47,340 nt of DNA from Saccoglossus kowalevskii (taxonomy: Eukaryota; Hemichordata; Enteropneusta; Harrimaniidae): the NCBI RefSeq assembly GCF_000003605.2, contig NW_003135356.1, forward strand, positions 52,043 to 99,382, in the 5' to 3' direction. Every line of letters begins with the position of its first letter. Positions within the stretch are counted from its first letter, which is position 1. Under the pieces are notes generated by a model. The model did not search any database. It saw nothing but the letters and a program-made list of their open reading frames with translations, and was not told the origin of the DNA. Positions 21,701-47,340 of the stretch are shown in pieces. The translations under genes and the position numbers were made by a program.

Positions 21701-22937
21701 GACGCAGTCCATCGTTTAGAAAGTCTTGAGTTTGAGTTTTCGCAAAATGTTTAATTTTTTTTTGGCGTGGCATATTGTCTCTGAGTGGGCAATTACCCAA
21801 AACGTGCATCAATTTTCGGTAGATTGAACTTCCACGTATAAGTGCTTTTAACTTTGATCTAAGGTTTACAGCATCTCAGTTTTGTGGAATATGTATCAGT
21901 ATTGACAGACGTCTGTCATTACGACGTCACTCCACATATAATCATGCACGGACGAATACACAATGCAAAACATTAACGTATCGATTTTCCGCCATAAACT
22001 GCAGATCACACTCGCTCGAGCACACAATAGCGAATAATAGAACGAAACAGCTTGAGGTCGAAAAGTGGTAAACTACAAAGATTTTGCGAACTTAATCTGC
22101 TCGTTCAGACTGGCAATAACTCAGACAGGTCATTACCACCGTGGAATGTCAACATCATGTAAATCACACACAACACTGTCAAGCATCCTATATCAACGGG
22201 AAATTATGTTCCGTGGCACATTCGTCCAGGGAGCGAAAATATGTTCTCACACGGCTAGTTATTTCACGAATTCCTGACTGGTTAGACTTTTTATTCAAAA
22301 AACTCATGGACGGGGTAATTGTTTCAATCATATCGGTGATAAGCTGTAATTTACACCGTCTTGGGGTGCTCTTGAGACCCGGTACACGATGTGCGTCTGT
22401 TTTATATTTCCAGCATTCTCCGTTTAACGACTAAGTTAACTTTGTCTTGTATTTTTTTCAATCTAGAGTTACGCCACAAGTGCCCTTTCCACATAATTCA
22501 AATGTGATCAGTTAATCAACCCTGTTGCTCCAAATACCGCCCCCAGAAGGAAGTGGCATAACAATCATTTGGTTGGTTTAGTGGTGAAGACGTCTGCTGG
22601 TCCAGAGGAAAACTGGCTCTGTCGTGGCATGGAATCGGTCATACGCCTTGTTCAGTGTATTTTATTTGTTTATTCTCACGTGAACTCAATCAAAATGTAA
22701 CACGTAGGCTAATGCACGCATCTACCGATGCACGTTCGCAACTATCAATGTCTAGACATCCCACGGCAACAATGATGCTGCGTTTTTTTACTTGAACCTG
22801 GGGGACACATGTCCCTCAGTTTGACAACGACTGGATGCCATATTGCCATCACTGAATACCTGCTGCTGATTGTTTCGCCGACCAAGGGATTAAAATCTGT
22901 AATCACCCTGATGAGTGGGCAGACACGGCAGCCATTA
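18731..22937. other. Non-coding stretch with small palindromes
   Basis: No protein-like frame. Noted: an AT hairpin TAATATAC/GTATATTA around 19612-19636; a tRNA-promoter-like pair of motifs near 20334-20371 (AGCGCAGTGG and GTTCGAATTCC) that is too compact for a tRNA; and ACAATGTC/GACATTGT at about 21671-21690, an 8-bp stem with a 4-nt loop. Confidence 0.35.
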
Positions 22938-23090
22938 AAGCGGACGGGTCGTCACATGCGCACGCGCGGCAATTGAGTCCCAAGCGATGATAACAACACA
23001 CGCTAAGAGCAAAGGCTCATGGGTAGACGCTTGTAAACAATGACGCGCTATGGCAATCTGACGCATGCGTAGGTGACGACTCCCTCGCTG
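22938..23090 (+). mobile_element. MITE, AAGCGG family, copy 1 (153 bp)
   Basis: The terminal inverted repeats start AAGCGGACGGGTCGTCAC and end GGTGACGACTCCCTCGCTG, and the flanks read TA (22936-22937 and 23091-23092). The internal segment with CCCAAGCGATGATAACA and TTGTAAACAATGAC is shared with the copies at 30410, 36697 and 39259. If the outer A belongs to the target site, the duplication could instead be TTAA, with one mutated base on the right. The ends carry TGCGCA/GCATGCG, resembling NRF1 sites. It is non-coding and non-autonomous. Confidence 0.9.
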
Positions 23091-24268
23091 TAAGCCACAC
23101 ATGGGGTGTCTTCACGTATCCCATATACTAATCACTCATACTGGTTAACGACATTACTCACTGGATTAAAATTGAGGACAAAACAAATCAGGAAGTCAGA
23201 AAGGAGGTTTTATGTCCATACACCTGTCGCGCGATTAAATTGCTTCCAAAGGAACGTAGTGTATGGGGACATCTCGCAGTTGAAAGTACTGACAGCTCCC
23301 TGGATCGATACCACGGCAAATTTGGCTCAAAACTTAAGAGCATTTGAAGAATACATCTTGTAACGTACTATTTTTCTGTGCGGATTAATTTAAGCGACAC
23401 ATTGTGACAACAGAAACTCGTATCAAGGCGCTAGATTGCGTGAACGCCAAAGAATGATATCTCCTATATATTATGTCAACAGTTCATTGACAAGCATAAG
23501 CAAGTATGTAAACGATTTGGTAAAACATGGAGGTAAACGACAGTTACCTCCATGGTAAAAACTAATCGTTTTTCTACAAGCATGTCGGACTAGTAACACA
23601 TACGCATTGATGCAGACTAAAAACTGTGATATTATCAATTTTACGAACATTTTTTTTTTGTAATTTTGTACATGGGCTTTCACGGAGAGATTTAATATTT
23701 GTAATATAATATATAATGTATTTTTTTATTAGTTGGCAGTATAAGAATGTTGTAAATAAACTCACTAACTGAACGAACTTAAGGGAGTACACATCAAATT
23801 ATGTTCAAATAAATGTCACGGGTATACGAGCAGTTACTAGTCGTATTCATTCTACATCATATACAGGAGTAAGATTTAAGTAATCGCTTATGTTTGTATA
23901 TCGGTAAAATCCAATTGCGTTCGCGCAAGGGAGGAAACAACATCTATCATGGGCAAAGAACACCGAAACATGTTCAAGAATATACTAGTTTTACTGTGCA
24001 TTCCTTTTAACCATGTTTACCCAGTACATTAACCAGGAAGGTATTAACTGTTGGATTTATGGTTAAACAAAACAATGACAAAACAAATTCAGAAAGTTCA
24101 GAGTAAACTGTCTCATCGTCAGCGCATTTTTTTCGAGAATAATGTGCACGCGTTGATTGTCAGGTTCGTAATTGCATACCGAAACTGACTTTTAGCTATG
24201 AATATGATAGTACATCTTCCAAGTAGACATTGAATACAACGCAGTTGTGGGCGCCTAACCTGGGCTAA
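23091..24268. other. Non-coding stretch with one stable hairpin
   Basis: No protein-like frame. The only structure is the hairpin at 23510-23571, listed separately. Confidence 0.35.
23510..23571. repeat. Two-tier hairpin
   Basis: The inner stem CATGGAGGTAA (23526-23536) pairs perfectly with TTACCTCCATG (23544-23554) around a 7-nt loop. Outside it, AAACGATT (23510-23517) pairs with AATCGTTT (23564-23571). The 8-9 nt between the tiers do not pair. It may be a decayed small inverted-repeat element; nothing shows that it is transcribed. Confidence 0.6.
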
Positions 24269-28300: not shown

Positions 28301-28406
28301 TTTTCCTTATAAAATATACTAAAATGGCGATGTAGAGAATGCGTATTCGGCCGTCTACTGTTGTGATATTCATTACTACTATAGAAATGCTATGTAATGT
28401 ACTAAT
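25306..28406. other. Non-coding stretch, one weak exon-like segment
   Basis: No gene called. At 26588-26658 a polypyrimidine-AG boundary precedes a Cys-containing open segment, discussed in the findings. The rest is AT-rich without repeats that I recognise. Confidence 0.35.
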
Positions 28407-28742
28407 GACCAGTTAGCTAGGTAGGCAAACCTAGGTAATAATGTCCAGTTAGCTAGGTAGGCTAACCATAATGGAGGTTACCTCCATGGGCTAACCTAGG
28501 TGATAATGTCCAGTTAGCTAGGTAGGCAAACCTAGGTAATAATGTCCAGTTAGCTAGGTAGGCTAACCATAATGGGGGTTACCTCCATGGGCTAACCTAG
28601 GTGATAATGTCCAGTTAGCTAGGTAGGCAAACCTAGGTAATAATGTCCAGTTAGCTAGGTAGGTTAACCCAGGTAATGATGTCCAGTTAGCTAGGCAGGC
28701 TAACCCAGGTGATAATGCCCTGTTACGTAGGTAGGCTGACTC
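28407..28742 (+). repeat. Higher-order minisatellite (36-bp and 65-bp subunits, 101-bp period)
   Basis: Two subunits, both starting GTCCAGTTAGCTAGGTAGGC, alternate. One is 36 bp (28407, 28508, 28609). The other is 65 bp (28443, 28544) and adds a palindromic insert around GGAGGTTACCTCC. They form a 101-bp higher-order period. Two further 36-bp units (28645 and 28681) and a decayed partial unit (28717-28742) close the array. Near-identity between the 65-bp copies (GGAGG versus GGGGG) points to recent expansion. Confidence 0.95.
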
Positions 28743-30409
28743 GGCTACGAAATGAAATTTGATAGCATGTATATGATTACTGCTAATTAATATTAATTTG
28801 TTCTTGCTTGACCACAGTAAAAATGAGCTTGATATTTGTCATCTATCCCCAGTAATAGCCCAGTGTCACGCGTCACAGTCAAACTCCCGTACTGTCAAGT
28901 GCTCTGGTTCCACGGCGTAAGGTTGCCAGCATTTGGAACCTGTGTTTTGCAAGAAGGGGGGGGGGGGTCAGCTAATATTGGTATCTTCTCTACACGGACT
29001 TTGTTCAAGTAGCGTGACGTTGCGACTACTTTATTATACTACTTATGCAATCATTGAGACACCGTCGTTTGAAAACTATCAGACAGACTTCGTCGCTAGT
29101 GTTGCCGTGTAATACTAAAACACTATTGGGAATGACTACACTGTGCAAACTGTTGGTCTAGCTCAGCTGGGTTATTGATCAATATTGATATTGTTCGTCA
29201 AGTATGTAAAATCTATATGATTGATTAATGTTACAGACCTGTTACATAATATAATGTTAATTATCAATCTCACATTATATGATCGTGTGCTTTTGTTTGA
29301 CCAATGATGTGATATTCTGGTGTGTGAGATATTGGCGGTCAGGTTCAATGGGAGATCTCGTATTCCCTTTTGTAACTATAAGCGTATATTCCCCAAAACG
29401 GATCGGAACAGGAAGTCAGTAGAAGACACCGGATTTTGTTTTTCGTTAGCATGGGGGAAATTGGTTGGCGTGAGAGAAACAGGTGTTTTTCCAAGAATCC
29501 ATTCGTCTATTCTTGTTAGTGATTAGTCACGATAACGTTGGGGGGGGGGGTCGTGACGTAGGAATCAATATATTACAGTTTAGAGAAGGATAGATTATTC
29601 GATTTGATATAACGGATGTAATCGATAGCTGAACGATCAATCAGTACTAACGAGGTGGTTTGTGGGAAGATAATCGGATCAGGGTATAGGAACCTCTTCC
29701 ATAAAGATTACAGATTACGGTACTCGTGGGAGCAAAGGGTCTCGCGAGAATTTGCCGTCATAATCGAGGTCGAACGGAACCGTCTTTGACAGCAAACTTG
29801 CACGAAAACTCTAAGATGACAGTACCACAAAGGACACTGTTCCGGGGGTGGTATCTATGGAAACCACAACTTACGCGTACGTGCCTTCAACTGTGCAACA
29901 TCTCGGTTCGTGCCCAAAAGTGATTCCACGTTCGTATATATGGCGGTCTCCTTGCTTTTTGATGAGCTGCTTTTCTATTCAGGAACTGTGCTTATCGGAG
30001 GATAAAATAAAGTTGAACATGCACATCAAATGTTATCAGAACCGTAAACATCGTGTTAAACGTGACGGGAATCACTCAAACGTGAATCTCGCGTGACTGG
30101 TCACGTGACGTGGAATGCTAGTAAGACGGAACAATTTTGATAGTGTTTTGACCTTGTGAAAAAAGATAATGTACAGTCATCAATTTGCGTTAACGTTTTC
30201 TGAAAGTTTGAACTCACTAAGCTGTAGAACGGGTTATCATTTGCGAAATCATAAGATCAATTTTGTGTACTATTCGCATGATGGAAACCAGATGATGGAA
30301 TGGATGAATTAATAGATGGAAACCAGCATAGTCGAGTTGTTGCCACTCGCAAACGTCATAATCACGCGAGAGCTCGTTCATCAATATCGCAAAGGATTTC
30401 AATGATATA
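28743..30409. other. Non-coding stretch with two G-runs
   Basis: Two long G-runs, 28956-28967 (12 G) and 29540-29550 (11 G), each followed by TC. GAGATATTGGCGG at 29326-29338 matches the right arm of the element at 44-151. GATGGAAACCAG is repeated near 30282 and 30316. No protein-like frame. Confidence 0.4.
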
Positions 30410-30566
30410 AAGCGGTGGAATCGTCACCTGCGCGTGCGTCAGATGGCCATAGCGTGTCATTGTTTACAAACAAGCGTCTACCTATGAGCCTTTGCGTTCA
30501 TCGTGTGTTGTTATCGTCGCTTGGGACCCAATTCCCGCGCGTGCGCAGGTGACGACCCTCCCGCTT
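30410..30566 (-). mobile_element. MITE, AAGCGG family, copy 2 (157 bp)
   Basis: This copy is inverted relative to those at 22938 and 39259: the interior reads TCATTGTTTACAAACAAGCG and then TTGTTATCGTCGCTTGGGA. Its ends are AAGCGGTGGAATCGTCACC and GGTGACGACCCTCCCGCTT, flanked by TA (30408-30409 and 30567-30568). Under the alternative TTAA reading the left flank would be ATAA. Confidence 0.9.
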
Positions 30567-33565
30567 TAATAAATGAACAGTTTTCACTACTGATAAAGCA
30601 AATAACAGAGACGACATATCATCATATCAACAGCGAACCTAAGGCGTAAGCTGCTCCATCTATTAAGGTGCACAAAATATATAAAAAATGTCGTTATTTT
30701 TTTTGAATAGTACTGTTTGCAAGTTGTTGAGATTTACATCGATTAATTACAATATAGAAAAGATATTTCCGGATTATGCACGACTTGACACAAATTCAAA
30801 AGTGGCGCCATCGTGGGATTTTGAGAACAAAAGAGTTGTACTAAGGGGCCGTATGTTACTTCCATTCAGGTATAATAAAGATGACTGTGCTAATTATAGT
30901 AACTATGACGTCACAACCTGTACTTGTTAAAAAAAAAACAAAGAATGGAGAAAAACTTGTTTCGCGGTGGTTTAGACCTAGATCGTGATATCTGAATTTT
31001 GCTGCAGTAAGATGTAGGGCGTGATTGTATTGGCAATCACGGGGCAATCTGTTTGTGAAACAATATGTAAATAACATTGCACTGAGTTTTCACATCGCTT
31101 ATTAATTGTGAATGTCATGTGACCTATCCCTAAGTCGTCTTGCCGACAAATATTGCGCTCTATAGTCTGCACTAGTAGTTTACTGGTGGCTAGGGTAAAT
31201 TTAATACGTTCACATATTTGCATAATTGCTTCTACGTGCTAATGTTACGCACACATGATTCGCGCAGACGCGCAGGTTTAGTGAACGCGTAGCTACGGAG
31301 ACGTACACGCGCCAGCCGAATCTCTGACGCGTCAGAAACAACCACATACAGTAGAAAAGAGTAACAAAAAACCTGCTCCCAATATACTAGGGCCATAGGG
31401 TCTCTGGGGAATGCCGCCATGCCCGCGGAGCTTCAGGAAATTACGTTTGAATTCTGGATAGTACTCCTGTAACACCGAAGGACATAGCATACATATCGCG
31501 AGAGTGCACGTTTAATGCCCAATGGACCATTGATGTTTGTGTTTTGTTATTTACTGCCATTACTTATTATATTTAGTTAGCAGCATCCTTGTAAATTTTA
31601 CGCGCTTCATATGAATTTTTGTTTGTGTGTGGCATGCGCGTCATGTTTTCGCGCGTTCGGCACATGGGCAACCCTTTGACGCGTGTGCATGGAAAGCAAA
31701 CGATCCGCGCCTACAAAAGCGTCCTCGCCATTTTGATCTCAGTTGTGAAAGTATTTGCAGAGGCATTCCAAAACAAGTGTTAATCACTTAACGCACAGCT
31801 GTAGATAACGCAACGTCGAAAATGAGCGCAATATCTTTGATTTAAAAATCTATCATCCGGGAAAATAATAGAGCATCGCGAACTCTACATCTCCGTTCAT
31901 GCAGCAGTGTCTTACGATTTCTATAAATATAGAACGAGGTTTGTGATATTTATGGGAGCATTACCCGTGAGACATCGGCAGATTTACGCTGAGTGATCAT
32001 ACGAGAAACCATTATGCTAATGTGATATATTTATATGCTGTTTTATTGTACTACATGTACGTCTACATATTTTAGCATTCCTATTAAAAATGGAAAAGTA
32101 GTTATCTTAAAATGGGAAAGTAGTTTTTTTTTTTTTTCAATTGAAAAAAATGGAAAGGTAGTTTTCCTAAACATTCTATGTACTCTGTAAATATTGTTAC
32201 ATTTGCAAAGCTATAATCGCAGTACAGTGACAACGCCCACTAATTCAGCCAACCAATGAGACTACGTGTCTTATCAGTGGTTCTTGACGATATTTGCATA
32301 TCAATGCAATATATGATCGTAGATGCGGTTTGAAAATCTATAAATGGACTGGGACATTAAAGTTAGTTGAGTAATAAAGACGTGTCAGTTATTTCATGGT
32401 TAAACTGTTTAAAACTGCCGAAAATCAGGGAAATTGCTAGTTGTGACGTTACCCTGGACCGAGGAGAGACCTTCCCTTTCGCAAGTTGTGCTTCGTCCTC
32501 CTGTCGGAGTTTCGCCGTGAGTTGACAAGGCCCTTTGAATTCTGGACGACTAGCCAACTTACTCACATCAGTCAATATTTCATCGTTGTCAAGAGATGTA
32601 TCGCTAACATGGACATAAATACAGTGTTTACCTTTAAGTTACGTATTTACATAACCATGGCTTATATGCCCCTGGATGGTTCGAAACTAAGCGATATGCA
32701 AATGACCCGTCTGTGCGGCATTATTTGCTGACACAGTAACGGCGAAGGTTTGCTTGTCGGCCGATGACTCGCCTTTCAAGAGTACAAACAATGAACTAAG
32801 AAAACATAAAATCGTCTGTCACGTGATTCAAAGTGCCAGCCAATACATCATCTAAGTCACGCCCTCTAGCGACTGAGGCCCTTCTGTGACGTCATGGGTT
32901 TAAGAAATGACATTCACTACGTTGATAATATTTTTGATTGGCGGGTATCCGGAAACAGCATAATATTTTTTTTTAAGATTTAGTTTGCTTTTAAATGACG
33001 AACTACTACATAGTAAATCAAATTTGCGGCTTCATGTACACATTACGTCATTGTGACGTCAACGAAGGTTATTGACAGATACTAAAGGTACCAACCACCG
33101 TATATATACGTCAGTTCACATAGTTTCATTTCACCAACGAAATATATTGATATAGATTTTAGGCCTGTTGGTTTTCTATTACACCTTGCAATTCTATTGA
33201 GTGATTATGCTTTCGAATTTATATAGTGTTACTTCTAAGTGAACGAAACGAGTCGAGTATTGTGCGTGTTTTCCATGTGAACCAAATTGCTGGTTCCAGG
33301 TACCTAGATATAATACCATGTACATTGTGGTTTTACTTTATACTGTTGTCCGCGAAGCCCAGAGCAACATACCACTATAATCGAACGAAATTCCATTGTT
33401 TGTGTTCTTTTCTCCCGGCAAATATTTCCCTCTCGGTCATAAATACGAGAATTGATGACTTGCGTCGAATTAATAATAGTAAGAGACAAACTGTCCACTT
33501 TATTTAATAAACTGACCCCCAACCACGAATCAAATAAACACAGTATTAAACCTCGCAATAAAGTA
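30567..33565. other. Non-coding stretch with a small tandem repeat
   Basis: No gene recognised. CpG-rich patches occur at 31260-31340 and 31620-31730 without protein-like frames. CRE-like TGACGTCA occurs near 32886 and 33053. Confidence 0.35.
32086..32172 (+). repeat. Three imperfect tandem units, AAATGGAAAAGTAGTT
   Basis: AAAATGGAAAAGTAGTTATC, AAAATGGGAAAGTAGTTTTT and AAAATGGAAAGGTAGTTTTC follow each other at 32087, 32109 and 32147. The second and third are separated by a T-run and CAATTGAA. Confidence 0.75.
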
Positions 33566-35997: not shown

Positions 35998-36696
35998 ACA
36001 CATGCGACGCGCTCGCTGAACGACGATTTTAACGATTTGAGAAGAATATTTTACTTTCTATATTTCTACATTAATTTGAGATTCAATTGATAAAGTTAAT
36101 TTCCATCATTATTCTGGTGGCTAACTTGGTAGATTTTGCAATTATATATTTTTTTGTATTTATTTTTTTGATGTCAAAGGGTTACAATCTATTCTTATCG
36201 CAAATAAATCGACGTCAAATCGTACTGAGGTCGTGCACTATTATTCTACATGACTAAACTTGAAACGGTTCAAGGAAGTTTGCGATTCATAGCCGCGGGT
36301 CAACTGTTTTCAAACTGATATAATTGGCCAATTTTACGAGTTTTACTCAATTTGAGGTTTTTTAAAAGCAATACAGCTGTGTAAAATTGCCGCAATTTGT
36401 TGCCGGCCAGCTTGAATCTGAAATGACGGTGTTCGTCCATTAGCGGAATACGTCTCGTAAAATAAAAAGAAATGTTAACACGTGACCTATTAATGGAATG
36501 TTTAACTTTATCACACGTACAGCTTGTTCTATATCACCGCTTGTGAGATATTTAACAAAAATAATCTTTCTATATTCCTTCAAAAATGTGAAGACGTCTT
36601 GATGTGAAGTTTATGACGACGTAGCGCGTGATCTTGGATACCAAATAACGATCATGATCTTATTTTAAAATTAAAATTAAATCACGTGCACTTTGA
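35998..36696. other. Non-coding stretch, nothing recognised
   Basis: AT-rich without protein-like frames or repeats that I can see. Confidence 0.35.
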
Positions 36697-36825
36697 AAGC
36701 GGGGGAGTCGTCACTTGATGGCCGTAGCATGTCCTTGTTTACAAGCAAGCGTCTACCAATGAGCCTTTGCGTTTTTAGCGTGTGTTGTTATCGTTGCTTG
36801 GAACTCAATTCCCGCGCGTGCGCGT
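36697..36825 (-). mobile_element. MITE, AAGCGG family, copy 3, truncated
   Basis: Same orientation as the copy at 30410. The left end AAGCGGGGGAGTCGTCAC is intact, and the interior TTGTTTACAAGCAAGCGTC and TGTTGTTATCGTTGCTTGG is present. Homology stops after CCCGCGCGTGCGCG, so the right end is lost. About 15 bases next to the left end are also missing. The left flank is GA in place of TA. Confidence 0.85.
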
Positions 36826-38560: not shown

Positions 38561-39258
38561 GATTGCCACACATGCAGTGGTGCGCGTCCCAACAAAACAG
38601 AACGTTCCGTGGCGTAAGCTGATTGGCAACATAATTTCAACACCTAATAGTGAGACCAATCAGAAAGCATCTTATTTGTTGGCAGATTTATTAGACGAAA
38701 CAAATACTGCGTTGTATACTACTAGTATGTTTCGACTCAACCGCCAATCACGGGCCCGATCCGACGCAACACGCTACAACATAGGTTGCCCGCTGAAGGT
38801 CGTATGCAATGGCACGTTTGTTCTGGATCTAGGCGATCACCGCCCACTCCCATATAGACTCCGTTTGCTCCCATTAAACACCGTCTGTCACGCGAAACAT
38901 CTTATTTATTACCATGAAATGAAACTGTCCATCGATAATTGGTGTTTTGTTGCTAATTTCACGATAACAAATTTCCAATACCCCAACCATGTAATGATGC
39001 TATGACTTATTTGAAAAAAATATCACAAGTATACTCCTCTAATTACGGCGTATCATCAATTGAAACGATCGATTCATACAAATATATTTTATTGAACAAG
39101 GCATTTGTAAATTGGTATGATTACTATTCTAAACACGCAAGGTTGATGCACGACAAAGGCGATATTCATTGTAGTTTTTGTTTCCATGGCGATAGAAGGC
39201 GATAACTCTGAAATTAGCACAATGACCTAGTTTATATACAAATTTATTCTGAACTTTA
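38561..39258. other. Open frame without recognisable motif
   Basis: A plus-strand frame runs 38577-39005. It begins at GTG, and its first ATG is at 38727, leaving 92 codons. I see no domain, signal peptide or bordering splice sites. It lies between two mobile elements and may be chance or a decayed transposon fragment, so I do not call it a gene. Confidence 0.2.
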
Positions 39259-39417
39259 AAGCGGGAGGGTCGTCACCTGCGCACGCGCGAGAATTGAATC
39301 CCAAGCGACGATAACAGCACACACTGAAAACGCAAAGGCTCGTGGGTACAGGCTTGTTTGTAAACAATGACACGTTATGGCCATCTGACGCATGCGCAGG
39401 TAACGACTCCCCCGCTT
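39259..39417 (+). mobile_element. MITE, AAGCGG family, copy 4 (159 bp, best preserved)
   Basis: The terminal inverted repeats are about 29 bp and match at 25 of 29 positions: the left starts AAGCGGGAGGGTCGTCACC and the inverted right starts AAGCGGGGGAGTCGTTACC. Each includes a TGCGCA(C/T)GCG word resembling an NRF1 site. Flanks are TA (39257-39258 and 39418-39419). Shifting the boundary by one base gives perfect TTAA on both sides, so TA versus TTAA remains open. It lies 8 bp from the start of the THAP transposon. Confidence 0.92.
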
Positions 39418-39425
39418 TAAGTTAA

Positions 39426-41086
39426 AGTGCCTGTGAAATGGCTGCTATTTTCACGCCTAAAATTATCCATTGATACATAAATATTATTAATTTTTATGTT
39501 TCTAAACATAAATAATTTTTTGTAAGTGAAAAAATGTGTTTTAAACTCAGTCTACGGATTTTTTTTTTTGTATTTTAAAACGAGGCTCCTTGTGACGTCA
39601 GAAGTGGAAGTCGCTGGGCAGCTTGCATTGCCGATACGTGTAAATAAGACAAATTTCTTGTGCTGTTTTCTCGTCTTTGACTAAATTGCCACTTATGTAT
39701 TTGTTCGTCGAGAAAGAGTGGACCATAATGAACACATAGTATCAAGTTTGTTGCTTGGGGTTGAATCAGATGCGAAATATGTCCGGTCTGGTGTAGCTAG
39801 TCACCGTGGTCGTCACCGTCACCGGAGCACGTTTGTACACTGTCGCTGGACTCCGGCATTGGACAAAATCAAATTTGACGGCTGAATGGTCTTGTTATTT
39901 AGCAGGTTACTAGACACTATTGATTTATAAAATAGAGAAATAATTTTAAAAAAACGACAAAACACAGTTGTAATGGTTGAACGCGTCGGGTCATGAGGGG
40001 GACAAGTGCGTGAATGGCGGCGTTTAATTGGATAACAAAAATAATTGAGAGCGACTCACATACAGACAAATTCAGAGTGGATTTAGCGTGATTTTCATGA
40101 TTATGGCATCATATTAAAGAAATACATTGACAGCTCAAGCCCGGATTCTTATTCCGTAAATTATTACGCCAATCAAGCTGCAAGTAAAGGCAACAAAGGT
40201 GTGAATTCGACATTCAACACCAATAACCGAACAATTCAGACACTTTTAGCCTGCGAAAATGAAAACATCCGGAGGGCTGCGTAATTTCCTGTTTGTCCGA
40301 CGCTTCGTTTTCGCGTCATTATCAAAATTACTGCTACCTTTTACATAACACGGATGGTCTCTATAAAGTGATAATCAGGGTCGCAAAAAAAATCAAATCA
40401 TTTGAAACACATACTCGACGTCTCTCTCCCTTCTGAAAAACGTTTTGTATTTTCGGCGTTTCTCGTTAAAACCTAGTTGTTTTGTCATGGACAAGGACAG
40501 TTTTTCAACAACAAAAAAATAATCTGAGGAGAAGTGGACACTGCATATGACGCTGTTAGGAGGAAGTCCACCCCAACCTTTTCTTGTTATTTTCACGGCT
40601 TTCGTCCACCGATTTCGCACCTTCGGATCGATTCGAAACGTGTAAATACTTACACTATAACTATACGCATTACTGCAACCGCCCACAATACAACGTTTAA
40701 TCATCATAAAAGTTTGTTGTGAAAACAACTTCTTAAAATTTGCTCTCTCAAAAATAAAATAAAATAGACAAAAGAAATGCTGATTAAAAAATGTATATCG
40801 TTTAAAATTACAGTTGTACGTTGAATGACACAGTGACATAAAAGTACGGCCCAGGGGTATGGCTTCCTCTCATATTTTTGCATTTGGTGGCGCACTTTTG
40901 GCGAGAGTTGGAAATCCGGAAACAGTCGACCGTTTCAGGATAGGTGGGCGTGGCTACAACACGGGAAATATCTCAAATTTACTTGGATACGAGTAATGAT
41001 TTTCAGCAAAAAAATCAATAATTGCCCATTTCAGTGGGGCACAGATCTAAAATGGGAAGTGTGTGGGTGGGCATTGCACAGGCACT
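39426..41086 (-). mobile_element. Kolobok-like DNA transposon carrying a THAP gene (1661 bp)
   Basis: Perfect TTAA stands at both borders (39422-39425 and 41087-41090). The left end AGTGCCTGTGAAATG and the inverted right end AGTGCCTGTGCAATG match at 14 of 15 bases. Inside, on the minus strand, is a THAP-domain frame (40393-40707). TTAA target duplications together with a THAP domain are the known combination of the Kolobok superfamily; piggyBac also uses TTAA but has no THAP domain. The rest of the element (39450-40390 and 40840-41060) shows no long frame, so the transposase is missing or split into exons I cannot join by eye. It is probably a non-autonomous derivative. Confidence 0.85.
40393..40707 (-). 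CDS. THAP-domain (C2CH zinc finger) protein of the transposon
   Basis: The frame encodes 104 residues from the ATG at 40707, a second ATG following directly. It begins MMIKRCIVGGCSN, the usual start of a THAP domain, which is why I prefer this start over the longer open frame reaching 40839, whose first 44 residues are Phe-rich and unlike protein. Zinc ligands, numbered from this start, are Cys6, Cys11, Cys55 and His58 (C-x4-C-x43-C-x2-H, in VICSVHFSSDYF). The invariant Trp is present in RNRWTKA, as are Pro28 and the Phe after the His. The closing AVPTIF motif is not recognisable, so the domain end has diverged. THAP domains bind specific DNA, here probably the transposon ends. A strong splice donor (GTATGTGT) follows 40415, so the tail may be replaced by a second exon. 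Confidence 0.85.
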   Translation of the reverse strand: MMIKRCIVGGCSNAYSYSVSIYTFRIDPKVRNRWTKAVKITRKGWGGLPPNSVICSVHFSSDYFFVVEKLSLSMTKQLGFNEKRRKYKTFFRRERDVEYVFQMI

Positions 41087-41090
41087 TTAA

Positions 41091-46030: not shown

Positions 46031-46656
46031 ATTGCTCATATTACGTCATGCATAATAATCATATATTACGTCATACATATTACATCATATATTACGTCAT
46101 ACGTATTACATCATATATTACACCATACATATTACATCATATATTACACCACACGTATTACATCATATATTACGTCATACATATTCACCGTATATTACGT
46201 CATACATATTACATCATATATTACGCCATACGTATTACATCATATATTACACCATACGTATTACATCATATTTTACGTCATGCATATTCATAATATATTA
46301 CGTCATGCGTATTGCATCGTATATTACGTCATACATACTCATAGAATACACTATACATAATCATCACACATTACGTCATACATGTTCACATATATTACGT
46401 AATACATATTACATCATATATCACTTCATACATATTACATCATATATAACGTCATACATATTACATTATATATTACATCACACACATAGTACATCATATA
46501 TAACGCCTTACGTATTACAACATGTATTACGTCATACATGTTCACATATATTACGTAATACATATTACATCATATATCACTTCATACATATTACATCATA
46601 TATAACGCCTTACGTATTACAATATGTATTACGTCATACATATTCATCATATATTA
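46031..46656 (+). repeat. 26-bp minisatellite with 156-bp higher-order unit
   Basis: About 24 monomers of 26 bp fill this block; each carries TTACGTCATA (or TTACACCATA) and ATTACATCATATA. In the second half, a block of six monomers beginning TTACGTCATACATGTTCAC occurs at 46371 and again at 46527, exactly 156 bp (6 x 26) apart, so the array has a higher-order period there. TTACGTCA (TGACGTAA on the other strand) resembles a CRE/ATF site and occurs at least eleven times. The long open frames over the array (46015-46293 and 46305-46685) are repeat artefacts: Tyr/Ile/His/Thr-rich and without stops by composition. Confidence 0.95.
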
Positions 46657-47340
46657 AGTCGCGCTCTGTCAATCAATGTGAGTAAGTCGACAGTTTTAGT
46701 AAACCTACAATTAAATTCCATTGGGACCGTAATGTTTACGGATGATGTATAACTCAAAAGGTGGAAAACTCCACCCTCACTTTTATGCGTGCAGTTAATC
46801 TTACCGACAATTTCTGAGTGTTCGGTATCGCTTCAGCGCCTCGTCGATCAACAGCGGGGAACGCAAAGTGGCATAAAGTAGGAGTTAATAGGGAATAAAA
46901 ACTGAGATTATTGGGATGTGTCGCGTGTTAGTAGAGACGAAATCACCATTTATGATTTGCACCCACAATCTGTCATCTGCGCCAGCACGCCGAGACACTG
47001 TCCATTGCACAGACCGGTCACGCAGACAGAAGTTAATTGTTGATTTCATAACTCCATGACGCATCATCCATCACAGACGAGTAGGCACACTGGCACGCAT
47101 TTCCGCCTACGTAGAATTTGATATATTAATAACAATGTTTCTATTAATTTTTAGCAAAGTAGACGTGTACATAGCTGCTTGAAACACTATTTTTTCTCTT
47201 GACGAGGAAAGGTTCGAGAACACGTGATCACTTGTATGCGTTTTTGTTAATTCACTTCATTTATGCAATAGTATAAGGAGAAAGACTGTTGTTACGCAAT
47301 GTTTATAAATAGTTATACCACAGAAAAACAAAAACAAAAA
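46657..47340. other. Non-coding stretch to the window end
   Basis: No gene or repeat recognised. The window ends in an A-rich CAAAAACAAAAA segment. Confidence 0.35.

Follow-up and report, generated by a model that had tools for sequence, protein, structure and literature searches.

A TTAA-flanked element of Saccoglossus kowalevskii as a probable non-autonomous Kolobok-type copy with a decaying THAP exon

A short stretch of DNA in the hemichordate Saccoglossus kowalevskii carries a THAP zinc-finger frame between two TTAA sites and no visible transposase, raising the question of whether it is a disabled transposon, the source of a stand-alone DNA-binding protein, or part of a host gene. An earlier note, made from the letters alone, had read it as a compact Kolobok-like derivative whose THAP protein might act as a repressor. 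We investigated the element in the window (the whole analysed stretch of 47,340 nucleotides of contig NW_003135356.1, whose numbering is used throughout) and in the source genome. We conclude that it is very probably one copy of a multicopy, non-autonomous and internally deleted Kolobok-type family with a decaying THAP exon.

The element is bounded by a perfect TTAA on each side and by inverted ends of the form AGTGCCTGTG(A/C)AATG, which match at 14 of their 15 bp, in agreement with the earlier description (Table 1). All 362 TTAA sites of the window were paired at spacings of 60 bp to 12 kb and searched for 15-bp inverted arms with at most one mismatch; the pair of this element was the only one found, against a chance rate of 0.017 such pairs per window in 60 dinucleotide shuffles. 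The termini of the window element and of its copies are AG..CT, the 5'-RR...YY-3' form of Kolobok elements. The flanks agree in TTAA alone and not over 8 bases, as the target duplication of P elements would have it; TTAA is palindromic, and its duplication is indistinguishable from an extension of the terminal inverted repeat without an empty site.

The window contains further repeats. A 165-bp MITE (39256-39420), which ends in TTAA and carries inverted repeats of the AGCGGGAGGGTCGTC type, lies one base from the TTAA of the element, and more copies of it were found at 22935-23093, 30408-30569 and 36696-36823, the last of them partial. Tandem repeats occupy 28399-28737 and 46038-46660 (units of 36/101 bp and 12/26 bp), and a 157-codon frame at 759-1232, with no Pfam match, presumably resembles the tail of an animal LINE. 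No match came from scanning the window with Rfam or for tRNAs.

Table 1. Features of the element, in window positions.
Feature	Position	Strand	Basis
TTAA target site, left	39422..39425	.	sequence
Left terminal inverted repeat AGTGCCTGTGAAATG	39426..39440	+	exact or near-exact in other copies
Whole element, 1661 bp, no transposase visible	39426..41086	- (sense of its THAP frame)	
Splice donor relic GTATGTGT	40407..40414	-	aligned with the donors GTAAGTG (L043/L053) and GTAAGTT (L064)
Exon 1 remnant: decayed THAP frame, M to donor	40415..40704	-	L043/L053 and L064 have longer homologues of the frame
C2CH part of THAP (Pfam profile positions 1-62 of 87), lacking the AVPTIF box	40483..40692	-	Pfam; box loss by alignment with L043
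Right terminal inverted repeat AGTGCCTGTGCAATG	41072..41086	-	
TTAA target site, right	41087..41090	.	sequence

With the element as query, the 572-Mb source genome yielded at least 76 matching pieces, a lower bound on copy number, as 40 of 583 first-look candidates were scored. We chose 37 loci, on 35 contigs, for a survey of copies. Both ends were in hand for 20 loci, 16 of which have TTAA on both sides, while the remaining four have one side altered (TTAT, GTAA, ATTC or CTAA); on 15 contigs one end or none was in hand, and some of these reach N or the limit of the fetched stretch. The 300-base flanks of the 20 two-ended copies are unrelated to one another except for two short matching pairs, so that the copies look like independent insertions. 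The majority consensus of fifteen full-length copies measures 1761 bp, and the individual copies diverge from it by 1.7 to 7.7 percent. Copies with the same ends and TTAA flanks are thus present elsewhere in the genome, and together with the AG..CT termini and the THAP frame they bear out the mobile, Kolobok-like element that had been proposed. Left out of the consensus set was L014 (C1962), which has a nested insertion at about element positions 165-983, with a 102-codon open frame. In viral contigs no relative was found by the exact terminal inverted repeat, and none of four pattern matches by protein was confirmed; in phages no relative was found.

The minus-strand frame of the window copy (40393-40869) has 158 codons, with a methionine at 40704. 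The C2CH THAP signature noticed in it corresponds to a match to the Pfam THAP profile PF05485 above the curated cut-off (E 5.1e-10 when translated from the methionine, 2.7e-9 over the whole frame), and by sequence the best-matching chains of known structure are labelled THAP domain-containing protein 2 and 1. The match stops at profile position 62 of 87, indicating that the C-terminal AVPTIF part is missing; this box occurs as AIPTIL in the related loci L043/L053 and as AVPIIY in L064. THAP is the sole long frame in the 1661 bp, as expected for a deletion and as the earlier description of a derivative without visible transposase had it.

A splice donor had been predicted after 40415, and the prediction was exact: the GT lies at 40414-40413 on the minus strand, in the context GA/GTATGTG (slash at the exon boundary), and aligns with the donors of relatives. 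GT occupies the aligned site in 48 of 57 motif hits of related loci, several of which overlap one element, and GC stands in its place in L061/L062 (one element) and in L067. The second half of the element is alike in L062, L067 and the family. The 42-codon segment at 39771-39896, which had been taken as a hint of a spliced second part, is indeed an open frame (39766-39894), but no support was found for its role as an exon: it has no Pfam match, and the protein alignment of the second half falls in several frames with stops. A resemblance to a possible exon 2 in L064 (DIPPNLL/DVPSNLL) was matched by 25 of 2000 shuffles, and is therefore not relied on.

The THAP frame is open through the C2CH signature in five of the 15 full-length copies (L001, L002, L005, L011 and L027), broken earlier in nine and lost in one, so that it is broken or absent in ten. 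Only L001, the window copy, is open as far as the donor. A further run of 37 consensus positions is missing from this copy and from L009 and L016 (3/15), and in the window copy it is this gap that leaves the frame open. Differences from the consensus fall evenly over the codon positions (43/44/46, P 0.95), and within the family we counted 33.5 synonymous differences per 571 sites and 90.5 nonsynonymous differences per 2015, giving a pN/pS of 0.77, which does not depart significantly from neutrality (binomial P about 0.16-0.23). Comparison of the consensus with L063, L065 and L064 over the THAP codons gives pS of 0.70, 0.70 and 0.88 and pN of 0.18, 0.19 and 0.31, a clear constraint between families. 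The comparison with L062 reverses this pattern (pS 0.05, pN 0.14), which we read as the decay of that single copy. Constraint between families and near-neutrality within this one suggest that THAP was working in the ancestors and became a passenger after the spread, and the frame of this family looks like a relic rather than a conserved stand-alone protein.

The open frame of the window copy, with its 158 codons and its unique reach to the donor, is what would be expected if the frame belonged to the host, either as an exon of a single-copy THAP gene or as a copy that had recently been taken over. We consider this extremely improbable, as many copies end at the terminal inverted repeat, the copy number already speaks against it, and the THAP frame lies wholly inside the element.

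A protein search of the genome with the window THAP peptide gave at least 150 matches, from the 150 of 317 candidates that were scored. No stop interrupts the matched stretch in 14 of the best 30, although these stretches are often short. Among the 150 matches listed, 56 cover THAP residues 2-5 to 37-38 alone. One of these, L067 (C3949, 3514-5158), has the same exact ends, 1637 bp between its TTAAs and about 60 bases missing from within THAP, and residues 3-37 are left in its subgroup. Taken together, the matches limited to the front of THAP and the deletion in L067 may point to a high-copy subgroup with a deleted THAP.

These results bear on the repressor function raised for the window copy, in which transposition would be blocked by a truncated THAP protein, translated from a spliced transcript of the short element and bound to its ends. 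There is a precedent in P elements, whose KP protein has 207 residues (PMC7776569), and the widely kept donor GT, the constraint on THAP between families and the uninterrupted stretches among the best protein matches would all be consistent with it. However, the breakage or loss of the frame in two thirds of the full-length copies, the near-neutral pN/pS, the even spread of substitutions over codon positions and the loss of the AVPTIF box in the group of the window copy argue against a functional stand-alone protein, as does the failure to find a convincing second exon. The repressor claim for the window copy is therefore not supported, and we hold such a reading of the short element to be improbable. 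Equally slight is the chance that the older subgroup with a full box, of the L043/L053/L058 type, or a few intact young copies, produce by splicing a protein of THAP alone that recognises the AGTGCC ends and damps its own family, a KP-like device that would have arisen independently in Kolobok. If true, it would be a parallel to KP in another superfamily.

The decaying passenger exon has more complete counterparts in older relatives. In L043 and L053 an exact TTAA-AGTGCCTGTGCAATG end precedes a THAP exon that reads through LKPGAIPTIL to the donor CGG/GTAAGTG (in L043, GGTAAGTG; the terminal inverted repeat of L043 is exact), with a tryptophan replaced by a stop in both and a frameshift after DSF in L053. 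Both match the family up to consensus position about 970, past which L043 differs for about 150 bases and then enters 3.6 kb of N at C4345:121.9-125.5 kb, and L053 has 36 bases left before its contig, C3593, ends. They may be longer parents of the family, L043 being the best candidate, or rearranged copies, with interiors that fall in the N or beyond the contig end. The locus L064 has the same end with one mismatch in the terminal inverted repeat, a THAP match of E 7.5e-17 over profile positions 1-86 of 87, and the donor GG/GTAAGT. It was rejected as an autonomous element: it has a complete THAP, a donor and one terminal inverted repeat, yet no right terminal inverted repeat at up to three mismatches as far as C4581:42300, and no transposase match in ten ORFs of L064/L068, where the few weak Pfam matches fell below their cut-offs. 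Its THAP gave 81 matches in the genome (109 of 109 candidates scored) and no close second copy; of its two relatives, the one on C1007 reaches 71 percent over 41 residues and the one on C128, which contains stops, 62 percent. A further locus, L066, is an old, degraded relative.

We additionally scanned the loci in hand for the AVPTIF box segment with up to 5 edits, collapsing overlapping loci and judging the forms by eye. The segment is full on three contigs (C4345, C3593 and C728) and shortened or eroded on 12, with hits in L066 and L067 set aside as chance or degraded; none was found in the window copy and its closest relatives. One locus, L058 (C728), has a full box and can nevertheless be matched to both halves of the short element, up to consensus position 1363; this points to loss of the interior before that of the THAP box.

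THAP was also found behind other ends. A second TTAA family is represented by L063 (295-1660), whose ends TTAAAGTGTAACTGAATTG are perfect on both sides and whose THAP relic contains a stop. The family, whose ends are also given as AGTGTAACTGAATTG, further includes L065, L069 and L070; L069 and L070 resemble it, and L070 keeps LKPDAVPTIW in another frame than its front part. The presence of THAP both in relatives with AGTGCC ends and in this second family suggests that it is a recurrent front exon of TTAA elements in this genome.

The piggyBac transposase also uses TTAA, and a non-autonomous element moved by it, with a THAP exon acquired by chance, would likewise have TTAA flanks and need show no transposase of its own. 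We think this improbable, since THAP recurs behind the same ends in older relatives and behind other ends in the L063 family, as expected if it belongs to the transposon. Moreover, the ends of the element begin with AG, and RR..YY ends are given as a difference between Kolobok and piggyBac (PMC9587614). Taken together, the TTAA flanks, the AG..CT termini and the front exon with THAP instead fit Kolobok, an assignment well supported by ends and THAP and not proved by an enzyme: no transposase was seen in any relative in hand (L043 runs into N, the contig of L053 ends, and L064 is without a right end).

We propose the following history of this Kolobok-type family. The ancestor would have had TTAA-flanked AGTGCC ends and a first exon with a complete THAP domain and a GT donor, as seen in the relatives. 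Internal sequence, presumably the transposase exons, would then have been lost, and the short element would have multiplied with the help of a transposase acting in trans, which recognised its ends and inserted it at TTAA, by analogy with Kolobok biology. The family most likely moved solely when a related transposase was supplied from elsewhere in the genome. The THAP exon would have been left as a passenger and eroded, as traced by the full, eroded and lost forms of its box, and the window copy would owe a frame open to the donor to its own indels relative to the consensus. Directly observed were the ends, the flanks, the many separate copies and the decay of the exon.

The main interest of the family lies in this readable order of decay, probably the interior first and then the THAP folding box and the reading frame, with almost no change in the ends on which mobility depends, and in a predicted donor that was confirmed. 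It also advises caution, as a transposon may give an unambiguous zinc-finger match without encoding a working protein.

Compared with known systems, the family resembles internally deleted P elements such as KP in that shortening has spared the THAP end of a transposase gene. In contrast, 31-bp terminal inverted repeats and 8-bp target duplications are features of P elements, and KP makes a protein whereas the frame of the window family is decaying (PMC7776569). With piggyBac elements it shares the TTAA target, and differs from them in its terminal bases (PMC9587614) and its THAP exon. A THAP-bearing deletion family of this kind did not appear among titles and openings of abstracts, a sample that includes few subscription journals and has little bearing on novelty. 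The closest likeness is to Kolobok, including the T2-MITEs and XKol of Xenopus (PMC6004289; PMC9587614), with which it shares TTAA, AG..CT ends and many short derivatives, as well as a THAP exon in its longer relatives. As described for Xenopus, AG termini are present in all ten full-length Kolobok elements and TTAA flanks every end but one, and the transposases contain DDE, THAP (C2CH, PWF, AVPTIF) and H2CH parts, although AVPTIF is conserved in just 17 of 38 and 12 of 24 of them (PMC6004289); the box has been suggested to promote proper folding (PMC6944463). THAP is reported in Kolobok-1_XT and Kolobok-2_BF (PMC2203978), and is not mentioned in a paper on Kolobok lineages (PMC9587614), so that it need not occur in every one of them. 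Unlike these transposases, the family yielded no DDE or H2CH part here, and its THAP box is decayed. Our best reading is thus of another member of a known Kolobok kind, an ordinary genomic parasite.
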